NCBI GenBank assembly: GCA_021804785.1
Contig: JAJZGY010000008.1
Location: 1-64,000 of the forward strand
Direction of reading: 5' to 3'
Origin: Pseudomonadota bacterium
GTDB taxonomy: Bacteria > Pseudomonadota > Alphaproteobacteria > Micropepsales > Micropepsaceae
Length of the DNA: 64,000 nt
The notes below the pieces were generated by a model. That model saw only the letters and a program-made list of their open reading frames with translations, was not told the DNA's origin and did not search any database. The translations under genes were made by a program, and so were the position numbers. Positions 7,688-11,274 of this stretch are shown piece by piece; position 1 is the stretch's first letter; each line of letters begins with the position of its first letter.

Positions 7688-8662
7688 TCAGCTCATGTCG
7701 CCCGCAAAGCTATACTTGCCATTGACGAAGCCGAGGACTTCCTGAGCCGCCTCGTGGTCAATTCCGCCATAGCGGGCCCGCAGTCGTTCAACCTCGACGA
7801 CACCAAGCGGCTCTAGGCCGGCATCCTGGAGGAGGCTGAGATCCTCATAAAGGCATTCGGCCAATTGGGAGCCGCACACGGCCATGGCGGCTTCGTGAAA
7901 TGCCCGGCCATAATCATAAAGGGCGCCCTGACGATACGCCATTGCCAAGCTCATCGCTGGAATTTGAGCCAATGTTGGTTGAAGCGATGGGTTCACAGCG
8001 TGCCCCTCCAGCTGGACTGCCGCAGTCACGCTTCGTCCGGTTACCGCACGAATATGCAGATAACGGCTCATTCGCGGGCCGTCGTTGACAGGATAATTGT
8101 CCCACAGAACGGGCTTGCGCCGCAAAAGATCGCGATGCCAGGATCCAAGAGCTTTCCGATGGTCTCGAGATAATCGGCCGGATGGCGACCAAATGTGCGG
8201 TCGAGGACTGGATCATCACTATAGTAGGTGGGACAAAATATCAGCTTCGTTCCTGGCAGCTGTTGTCCGACTGGTTCGATGATTGCTCGTTGGCCAGCCG
8301 TGGTGAGCCGCCATGCATGTCATCAAAAAGGATGGCAAAGAGATCAAGCTTTAGCGCACGCAGTTGGTCAAGCTTGGCCGCGAGCTCGGTACGAGCCGTC
8401 TGACCGAAGTTTCGAAACAGCGCATAGGGACTAAATCCAAGACCAAAATTGACTCCCAAGCCCTGGCAGTATCCCGCCAGACTGACCAATGCCTCGAAAT
8501 CGCGCTGGGGATAGGGTGTACGCCATCCCCGTCGCAAGTAATTGTCGGACTTGGGAGCATAAATGTAGAAGCCATAACCATGCGGCCGCAGCGCAGCTAT
8601 CGTGCTCTTGCGACTGCGCATCGCCCACGGTCTTCCCTAAAAGCTTCAATGACGCCGAGCAT
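7688..8662 (-). pseudogene. GH84 beta-N-acetylglucosaminidase, broken by several lesions
   Basis: Remains of a family GH84 beta-N-acetylglucosaminidase (O-GlcNAcase/hyaluronidase type). Read on the minus strand from about 8662, the pieces follow the family order: LGVIE..F.GRPWAM, then RPHGYGFYIYAPKSDNYLRR, the catalytic double aspartate in LFAILFDDMHGG, KLIFCPTYYSDDPVLDRTFG, then RRKPVLWDNYPVND and a C-terminal helical part. They lie in different frames. A base loss plus a TAT-to-TAG-like change near 8640 breaks the N-terminus. A frameshift near 8280-8295 follows the DD motif. Near 8110-8125 a deletion of roughly 20 residues, with a frame change, removes the segment before WDNYPVND. The catalytic residues survive but the gene cannot encode a continuous enzyme. 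Confidence 0.82.
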
Positions 8663-9228: not shown

Positions 9229-11274
9229 ATGTCCACGAAGAATGGAGGTAATGGGCCACGTACAGTGGCCTTGGTCGGACCCTATGGGGCCGGCAAGACG
9301 AGCTTGTTGGAAGCGATGTTGTACGCGGCGGGAGCGATCGGACGAAAAGGTTCGGTCACTGCTGGCAGCAGCGTTGGGGATTTCGGCTCCGAGGCGCGGT
9401 CACGCCAAATGAGCGTCGACGTCAATTGCGCGACTTTCGACTATTTGGGTGAACGTTTTACTCTACTCGATTGTCCAGGTTCGATTGAATTGCTGGCTGA
9501 TACCCTTGGAGTACTGACAGGCGTCGATGCAGCCGTGGTCGTCTGTGAACCGCACGCAGAAAAGCTGATGATGCTGAAGCCTTATCTGAAGAGGCTCGAA
9601 GAACAGGGAATTCCCCACTTTCTGTTTGTCAACAAGATCGACAAAGCCTCTGGAAGCTTGCGTGAGCTTCTCGCATTCCTGCAGGAAGCGTCAGACAAGC
9701 CACTATTGTTTCGGCAAATTCCGATATGGGAAGGGGGGGCTGTTGTCGGCTTCGTCGATTTGGCACTAGAGCGTGCCTATGTCTACCATCAGCATGAGCC
9801 AAGTGAAGCGATCTCGATGGATGGCGAGATCAAGGCGCGGGAAGTTGAGGCCCGCTTTGCGATGCTCGAAAAGCTGGCCGACTTTGATGAGCACCTTATG
9901 GAAGAGCTGCTCAGCGATATGACCCCGCAACCTTCTGAAGTGTTCGCGGATTTGACCAAGGAGCTTGGTAACGGCGACCTGGTTCCAGTGCTGATTGGTT
10001 CGGCCGAGAACGACAATGGCATTCGGCGGTTGCTTAAGGCACTGCGTCACGAAACGCCGGGAGCGGAAAAGACCGCGGCTCGCCTGGGACTACAGCTAGG
10101 AAGAGGTGCGGCTGTCCAGATACTCAAGACATATCACTCGACACTGGGAGGCAAGATGAGCCTGGGACGTATCTTCGGTGGTCCGCTGAAAGATGGTGCG
10201 GTCTTGCACACGCCTACCGGAAGTGACGTACGTGCAGGAGGTGTTTTCTCGTTGCGAGGCGCCGAGGTCAGTAAGATTTCGGAAGCTTCTGCGGGGGAAT
10301 GTGTTGGCTTGGGTCGGCTGGACGGGGTGTTGACTGGTGATCTGCTGACTGAGGCAAAAGGTGTACCTCTATCCAAGATCGAAATTGAACATCTTCCACC
10401 GGTTTATCGTCTGGGCATCGAAGTCGCTGATCGCAAAGATGAGGTTAAACTGACGGCAGCGATCGCCAAGCTCCACGAAGAAGATCCCTCGCTAATTCTC
10501 GAGCAGAACCCTGAGCTCAACGAGATGACCTTGTGTGGGCAGGGAGATATTCACCTTAAGGTGGCAACCGAAAAACTCGTGGGAAAATATGGGCTCAAGC
10601 TCAATACGCATCCTCCGCGCGTGCCTTACAAGGAGACAATCCGAAATGCCACTACGAAGCGGGGCCGGTATAAGCGGCAAACCGGAGGGCATGGTCAGTT
10701 TGGAGATGTGGTCCTCAAGATCGAACCACTTACACGGGGCTCCGGCTTTGTGTTTACAGATCGAATTACTGGCGGAGTTGTGCCAAAGCAATGGATTCCA
10801 TCGGTGGAGAGGGGGGTGACGGAGTATCTCAAGTGTGGACCTCTTGGCTTTCCGATCGTCGATATTTCGGTGACCCTCTCTGACGGATCTTACCACTCTG
10901 TGGATTCATCGGATGCGGCATTTCAGAGCGCGGCGCGTATCGCCATGCAGGAAGGCATGCCGGAATGTAATCCTGTACTGCTCGAGCCAATCATGCACGT
11001 CCAAATACACGTTCCAAGCGAGGCGACAGCAAAGGTCAACGGTGTCGTGTCGAGCAGGCGCGGCCAGTTGCTGGGATATGACGTGAGGCCGGGCTGGCGC
11101 GGCTGGGATACGGTGCTGGCACAGATGCCGATGGCGGAGTTGACGGATCTGATCATCGACCTGCGATCCCTGACGCAGGGCGTAGGCAGCTTCGAGGTCG
11201 AATTCGATCATTTGGGGGAACTGTCGGGAAAGCTTGCTGAGCAGGTCGTTGCCCAACATCGGAAGGCGGCATAA
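9229..11274 (+). CDS. Elongation factor G-like GTPase (divergent paralogue)
   Basis: Translation-factor GTPase of 681 residues with full EF-G architecture: G domain with P-loop GPYGAGKT (residues 17-24), switch II LLDCPGSIE near residue 80, NKID near 140, then domain II, III, IV (RVPYKETI...GGHGQFGDVVLKIEP) and V. The canonical EF-G switch II is DTPGHVDF; here the histidine that positions the catalytic water is replaced by Ser, so GTP hydrolysis is probably slow or altered. It stands alone, not in a str operon with rpsL/rpsG/tuf, so it is unlikely to be the housekeeping fusA. Other EF-G-like proteins act in ribosome recycling, back-translocation or stress; which applies here is unknown. The ATG at 9229 has GTGAGG upstream. 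Confidence 0.88.
   Translation: MSTKNGGNGPRTVALVGPYGAGKTSLLEAMLYAAGAIGRKGSVTAGSSVGDFGSEARSRQMSVDVNCATFDYLGERFTLLDCPGSIELLADTLGVLTGVDAAVVVCEPHAEKLMMLKPYLKRLEEQGIPHFLFVNKIDKASGSLRELLAFLQEASDKPLLFRQIPIWEGGAVVGFVDLALERAYVYHQHEPSEAISMDGEIKAREVEARFAMLEKLADFDEHLMEELLSDMTPQPSEVFADLTKELGNGDLVPVLIGSAENDNGIRRLLKALRHETPGAEKTAARLGLQLGRGAAVQILKTYHSTLGGKMSLGRIFGGPLKDGAVLHTPTGSDVRAGGVFSLRGAEVSKISEASAGECVGLGRLDGVLTGDLLTEAKGVPLSKIEIEHLPPVYRLGIEVADRKDEVKLTAAIAKLHEEDPSLILEQNPELNEMTLCGQGDIHLKVATEKLVGKYGLKLNTHPPRVPYKETIRNATTKRGRYKRQTGGHGQFGDVVLKIEPLTRGSGFVFTDRITGGVVPKQWIPSVERGVTEYLKCGPLGFPIVDISVTLSDGSYHSVDSSDAAFQSAARIAMQEGMPECNPVLLEPIMHVQIHVPSEATAKVNGVVSSRRGQLLGYDVRPGWRGWDTVLAQMPMAELTDLIIDLRSLTQGVGSFEVEFDHLGELSGKLAEQVVAQHRKAA

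Follow-up and report, generated by a model that had tools for sequence, protein, structure and literature searches.

The gene at positions 9229..11274 of the forward strand (ATG start, 681 amino acids) encodes a paralogue of elongation factor G (EF-G) belonging to the subfamily EFG II, in which three residues of the GTPase active site are replaced together while the motifs for GTP binding and the ribosome-facing domain IV are retained. The gene lies in the window, a term used here for the whole 64,000-nucleotide stretch of DNA analysed, taken from contig JAJZGY010000008.1 of an alphaproteobacterial assembly of the family Micropepsaceae. The assignment is based on the tree and on the best NCBIfam model, NF009379. 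The product is probably a ribosome-binding EFG II paralogue of the alphaproteobacterial/cyanobacterial type with little or no GTP hydrolysis, which would serve as a slow alternative translocase of low GTP cost or as a related A-site factor.

Assignment to the EFG II Subfamily

Four EF-G subfamilies have been described by Margus et al. 2011 (PMC3150367). In the excerpts of that paper, EFG II is marked by a divergent G domain without RGITI, and its branch of Alphaproteobacteria and Cyanobacteria carries the G2 motif R/HxMS/GV. The window protein resembles this branch in its G2 motif (RQMSV), in its location outside the str operon, and in the combination of a divergent G domain with a conserved domain IV. 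It also matches 12 of the 13 diagnostic positions given there, 6/6 of type I and 6/7 of type II. No clear difference from the branch is seen; the only mismatch is position 499, where Arg is found and not Lys, and Arg is also the majority residue among the alphaproteobacterial sequences. The terms “histidine” and “DTPGH” have no occurrences in the same excerpts, which do not discuss the switch II His.

The first-pass annotation of this DNA had called the protein an EF-G paralogue and had proposed a family tree as a check. Such a tree, built with EFG I and EFG II sequences, supports the name and places the protein inside EFG II, apart from EFG I. It comprises 60 sequences (33 alphaproteobacterial ones, L027, and 26 others) and was computed by a quick method with SH-aLRT values as its only support. 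EFG I, with eight sequences, is separated from the 52 others with SH-aLRT 100 on both sides. The 33 alphaproteobacterial sequences and one divergent alphaproteobacterial sequence form a single branch, again with SH-aLRT 100, and the window protein falls inside it. When 14 control genomes were searched at E<=1e-200, only Synechococcus elongatus gave a match, which is expected because the group is alphaproteobacterial/cyanobacterial.

Other families were rejected. A canonical EF-G (EFG I) is ruled out by RQMSV and by Ser at residue 85, and the TIGR00484 score is 367 bits against a cut-off of 659. A TetM-like tetracycline ribosomal protection protein is likewise ruled out (NF012153, 217 bits, cut-off 775), and the model of the Bacteroides EF-G2 protein family, NF058620, gives 315.6 bits against a cut-off of 1000. 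Judged by its sequence, the window protein is thus an ordinary member of a subfamily that was already described in 2011.

Domains and Predicted Structure

The G domain comprises residues 11-275 (9259..10053, Pfam GTP_EFTU) and is followed on the same forward strand by domain III (residues 390-461, 10396..10611, EFG_III), domain IV (463-580, 10615..10968, EFG_IV), and domain V (583-672, 10975..11244, EFG_C). The Pfam scores of domains III, IV, and V are far over the cut-offs, and the Pfam search gave no match for domain II. NF009379 (“elongation factor G,” equivalog) matches residues 8-680 with 977.5 bits, over a curated cut-off of 513 that some EFG I proteins also pass, for example, L136 at 547 bits. 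The AlphaFold2 model, obtained with a 30-row alignment, has a mean pLDDT of 89.2 and a pTM of 0.85. The earlier statement that domains II-V are intact therefore stands on Pfam evidence for III-V; for domain II, it rests on the model and on the full-length NCBIfam match, not on Pfam.

In VIA-align, the best match of the model is 9rtu, a ribosome-bound EF-G chain (Z 47.5, 2.6 Å, 666 residues). The model also aligns with Thermus thermophilus EF-G-2 (1wdt; Z 44.1, 3.5 Å, 656 residues, 34% identity), with Bacteroides thetaiotaomicron EF-G2 on the ribosome (8dmf; Z 40.2, 3.6 Å, 668 residues), and with Mycobacterium smegmatis EF-G2 on the 70S ribosome (9k0z; Z 40.1, 3.1 Å, 655 residues).

Genomic Context

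The profiled neighbours of the gene, between 4960 and 17365, include an aminotransferase, a broken N-acetylglucosaminidase, a molybdopterin oxidoreductase, a LysR regulator, and a pyridine nucleotide-disulphide oxidoreductase, among others, with no ribosomal protein genes. The genome's own canonical EF-G (G000:C95) occupies the str operon, between the S7 and EF-Tu genes and with S12 and S10 adjoining. The earlier remark that the paralogue lies outside any ribosomal protein operon is therefore borne out. Two more matches are present in this genome, one at 27% identity and one weak; from position and length, they are read as RF3 and as another translational GTPase, respectively.

Clustering of the ORFs around 31 loci, the window included, yielded no conserved partner gene, in clusters that contain many shadow ORFs of GC-rich DNA, and synteny is shared with near relatives only. 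Around the gene, promoter- and terminator-like sites do not exceed their frequency in shuffles. Its genomic context does not point to any function.

Two side observations concern neighbouring genes. The beta-N-acetylglucosaminidase-like gene (PF07555) at 7688-8621 of the reverse strand falls into two ORFs that are not in the same frame; as its counterparts in L005 and L017 hold both pieces in one single frame, the window copy is either broken or affected by a sequencing error. Elsewhere, EFG II and canonical EF-G genes occur on one contig, about 12 kb apart in Novosphingobium mathurense G485:C25 (L230, 70341-72344, and L236, 84603-86654) and about 21 kb apart in G286:C38 (L099 and L140).

Active-Site Replacements in the Window Protein

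The canonical EF-G, represented by the copy of the same genome and by E. coli fusA, shares with the window protein the five-domain fold, the domain IV tip, and the G1, G3, and G4 motifs. It differs in its overall sequence (about 30% identity between the two proteins of this genome), in its str operon location, and in the motifs AHIDAGKT, RGITI, and DTPGH, whose counterparts in the window protein are GPYGAGKT, RQMSV, and DCPGS. In the P-loop (GPYGAGKTSL, 9277..9306), aligned with EFG I, Lys23 and Thr24 are kept, whereas the Asp found in 38/38 EFG I sequences is replaced by Gly20. In G2/switch I (RQMSV, residues 59-63, 9403..9417), which fits the motif of the alphaproteobacterial/cyanobacterial group in PMC3150367, the Mg-coordinating Thr of RGITI is Ser62. 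Switch II reads LLDCPGSIELL against DTPGHVD in EF-G, and within DCPGSIEL (9469..9492) the position of the catalytic His is occupied by Ser85 (9481-9483). The G4 motif NKID (9631..9642) is kept; all four motifs are on the forward strand.

The replacement of the catalytic His, which the first-pass annotation had proposed, is confirmed by the presence of His in all 38 aligned EFG I sequences, and the changes of the P-loop Asp and of the switch I Thr are two more that it had missed. The P-loop Asp is a ligand of a monovalent cation, and Gly has been noted at that position in EFGII (excerpts of PMC4342817). The switch I Thr is a Mg ligand, and a Ser in its place could still coordinate Mg (excerpts of PMC3150367). 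Since Lys23, Thr24, the Asp and Gly of DxPG, and NKID are retained, the window protein is expected to bind GTP. Conversely, the combined replacement of the P-loop Asp, the switch I Thr, and the switch II His would make its GTP hydrolysis poor or absent.

Active-Site Residues among Relatives

The alphaproteobacterial relatives were drawn from a scan of genome contigs (31 loci), from 289 genomes of the class (30 loci and 70 stretches, plus 10 canonical EF-G stretches), from searches of the genus and the order (five loci), and from named plasmids (5 of 1269 matching records). The resulting set has 136 rows, excluding L001, which is the window gene itself. L026 and L135 are C-terminal fragments without a G domain and do not enter the switch II count, which covers 134 rows; L113 and L129 are without an N-terminus and were counted from switch II onward only. 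For comparison, 23 other EFG II sequences (15 from elsewhere in the phylum, four from Myxococcota/Deltaproteobacteria, one more metagenome-assembled genome, and three PDB chains) and 38 EFG I sequences were used.

The switch II His is present in 0/134 alphaproteobacterial EFG II, 0/23 other EFG II, and 38/38 EFG I sequences. Of the EFG I rows, 25 came from the phylum search and share 54-68% identity with E. coli EF-G; the remaining 13 were classed by low similarity to the window protein and by canonical motifs, so that for these 13 the count leans on the motif under test. The tree covered eight EFG I rows and part of the EFG II rows. Within the first set of 125 clade sequences, 123 could be scored at this position: Ser occurs in 108, Ala in 11, and Asn, Gly, Phe, and Thr in one each, with no His. 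The P-loop Asp is found in none of 121 sequences of this set, and the switch I position is Ser in 89, Gly in 24, and Thr in 8 (n=121). The P-loop Lys is present in all 132 alphaproteobacterial rows that hold the P-loop (L026, L113, L129, and L135 left out), and the GTP-binding motifs G1, G3, and G4 are kept across the clade. In the 23 other EFG II sequences, the switch II residue is Tyr in 10, Ser in 10, Ala in 2, and Leu in 1.

The loss of the His is not peculiar to the window gene: it is fixed across the alphaproteobacterial clade of EFG II, and His is missing at this position from every EFG II sequence examined. Chance or a sequencing error behind the switch II change is ruled out by the recurrence of the motif across this large clade. 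The text of the open-access papers searched yielded no remark on how the switch II His is distributed in EFG II, and we do not claim that the pattern is unpublished.

Erosion of GTPase Elements in EFG II

The switch I segment corresponding to window residues 37-58 has 21-22 residues in 122 of 132 alphaproteobacterial rows and is reduced to 8-10 residues in eight. These eight are four plasmid-borne copies of Rhizobium/Sinorhizobium (L192, 4013-5974; L193, 1538-3487; L195, 4001-5950; L196, 4013-5971), the copy of Gemmobacter aquaticus (L027, 6001-7908), and L123, L126, and L127. The four Rhizobiaceae copies and L027 are 34-38% identical to the window protein and have a switch I of 8-9 residues; their switch II reads DAPGPNE, DVPGNNE, DTPGSIE, DTPGPNE, or DVVGGAE. 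All five retain GKS, NR[MI]D, and the tip of domain IV, and those that are annotated bear the plain name elongation factor G. NF009379 scores L195, L193, and L027 at 720-861 bits, and the model of L027 is confident across most of its length (mean pLDDT 86.3, pTM 0.80). With L195 as a query, 87/289 genomes of the class sample matched, and as the best match was 44% identical, this sample holds no close relative of the Rhizobiaceae form.

Outside the class, seven further EFG II proteins of one family in the same phylum (L167-L172 and L179) read GAGETTL in the P-loop, with Glu instead of Lys; their G4 motif is Thr-[K/R]-x-D rather than NKxD, and at the position of the switch II His they carry Ser. 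From these residues, nucleotide binding itself may have been lost in this group. The P-loop Lys is also absent from L174 and L175. Four proteins of Myxococcota/Deltaproteobacteria (L030, L031, L032, and L034) have TGMD for NKxD, with Ser or Ala at the position of the switch II His. Loss in the GTPase part thus recurs across EFG II, as the short switch I, GAGETTL, and TGMD sequences indicate.

Characterised EF-G2 Proteins and GTP Hydrolysis

The closest parallel in function is the EF-G2 of B. thetaiotaomicron (BT2167, fusA2). Its chain (7uvp/8dmf) has the switch II IIDCPGSDDF and the P-loop GSSGSGKT; it therefore shares with the window protein DCPGS, the P-loop Gly for Asp, and a Ser in G2, and it too is a second EF-G alongside a canonical one. 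By contrast, it is a distant relative of 718 amino acids from another EFG II branch, with YGYSV as its G2. In the tree, where it is represented by the G-domain piece only and has a long branch with weak support, it lies outside the alphaproteobacterial clade, so that the DCPGS of the two groups may be convergent. Han et al., in EMBO J, are said to have found this protein to be without GTPase activity. Excerpts of citing papers describe it as enabling GTP-independent translation, and it has been reported to support translation. Carbon limitation induces its gene 238-fold, and the gene is required for gut colonization (excerpts of PMC6989115); this induction is reported for the Bacteroides gene and not for the window gene. 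The Bacteroides protein is probably the best precedent for function, as a parallel and not as proof. As a side remark, 7uvp_A is labelled tetracycline resistance protein TetQ, a label that looks misannotated since the sequence is identical to that of B. thetaiotaomicron EF-G2 in 8dmf.

Other members of the family differ among themselves. T. thermophilus EF-G-2 shares with the window protein the EFG II fold, the P-loop Gly, and the absence of the switch II His, but it has Tyr at the His position (DAPGYGDF), Thr in G2, and a reported GTPase activity; the excerpts of PMC3832671 and PMC9067457 describe it as a GTPase dependent on the ribosome, whose poly(U)-dependent activity is low. The EF-G2 of M. 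smegmatis, another EFG II protein with Tyr at this position (DTPGYADF) but with QQRSV as G2, showed no ribosome-dependent GTPase according to the same sources. In E. coli EF-G with the H91A substitution, ribosome-stimulated hydrolysis runs at 28 instead of 202 per second (about 7-fold slower) and Pi release at 0.32 instead of 28 per second, with intrinsic hydrolysis unchanged (excerpts of PMC4532990). A dead enzyme is thus not predictable from the His change alone; the argument rests on the three changes together and on the switch I trend. Because the biochemistry of the family is mixed, the functional step is one that we still infer.

These data leave an appreciable minority chance that the window protein is a working ribosome-dependent GTPase, in which the ribosome or another residue makes up for the His, and hence a slower but ordinary alternative EF-G. 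The activity reported for T. thermophilus EF-G-2, the roughly one-seventh of the wild-type rate left in H91A, and the retention of G1, G3, and G4 in the clade all agree with such an enzyme. However, the residue found here is Ser and not Tyr, the switch I Thr is mostly gone (8/121), and several relatives are without most of the switch I segment. Moreover, no new His appears among the clade-specific conserved positions, and the sole new Gln, Q438, is in domain III. Poor GTP hydrolysis is a reasonable inference from the sequence, and it gains strength from the two accompanying losses, of the P-loop Asp and of the switch I Thr, as well as from the identical DCPGS of Bacteroides EF-G2.

Maintenance and the Ribosome-Facing End

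The tip of domain IV carries His556 (10894-10896), the equivalent of T. thermophilus His573, which is His in 135/135 alphaproteobacterial rows, and the loop residues around it are nearly fully conserved. Columns conserved to at least 95% number 36/119 in domain IV for both 123 alphaproteobacterial EFG II and 13 EFG I rows, whereas in the G domain they number 42/270 in the former and 120/270 in the latter, in a comparison of sets unequal in size and depth. Comparison with the 92% identical relative in L005 gives a dN/dS of 0.036 for the whole gene and of 0.028 for the G domain, a ratio that is rough because dS, at 1.28, is near saturation. The invariant tip His and the low dN/dS indicate that the gene is not decaying. 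A match of at least 600 bits occurs in 101/289 genomes of the class, by a count of the matches listed, a match at E<=1e-200 in 72/96 genomes of the order and 42/60 of the genus, and five genomes (loci L005, L020, L025, L027, and L029) each hold one EFG II and one canonical EF-G. This pattern shows a protein that is maintained, its ribosome-facing end preserved and its hydrolysis residues lost.

Conservation of this end also bears on an improbable alternative, a non-translocating A-site factor that acts on stalled, idle, or post-termination ribosomes in rescue, recycling, or hibernation, with GTP as a structural ligand only. EF-G paralogues are known to split functions, as in the recycling by B. 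burgdorferi EF-G2 and mitochondrial EF-G2 (from excerpted sources), and a structure of M. smegmatis EF-G2 on 70S ribosomes exists (9k0z) although the protein showed no GTPase activity. Such a role is at odds with the full conservation of the domain IV tip His, with its nearly invariant loop, and with the support of translation reported for Bacteroides EF-G2. That the gene is a decaying duplicate without function is very improbable: its divergence from the canonical EF-G and its patchy presence in the genus would suit this, but the dN/dS value contradicts it, and the open reading frame and the spread through the class also stand against it.

The preferred reading is that of a ribosome-binding paralogue with little or no hydrolysis. 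The window protein would bind GTP and the ribosome, and its domain IV would enter the A site in the manner of EF-G. It may then move tRNA as a slow, low-GTP-cost alternative translocase, or act as a related A-site factor, under a stress in which canonical EF-G is scarce, as would be in line with the reports on Bacteroides EF-G2.

Biological Significance

What seems worth keeping is the His-free pattern of EFG II, the Bacteroides-like DCPGS, and the loss of switch elements in alphaproteobacterial relatives. On a more tentative level, EFG II as a whole might be marked by the loss of the switch II His, with its alphaproteobacterial branch made up of GTP-binding but non-hydrolysing translocases that are most eroded in Rhizobiaceae and some others; we regard this as possible, with the odds slightly against it. 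If it were true, a large share of the Alphaproteobacteria could possess a factor that drives tRNA movement through its binding only, and the Bacteroides finding would extend to other environments. The need for GTP hydrolysis in the steps of tRNA and mRNA movement is still debated (excerpts of PMC12775393). In this regard, the EFG II proteins of the class would offer many natural EF-G variants without the hydrolysis residues, including forms without most of switch I, with which this need could be tested.
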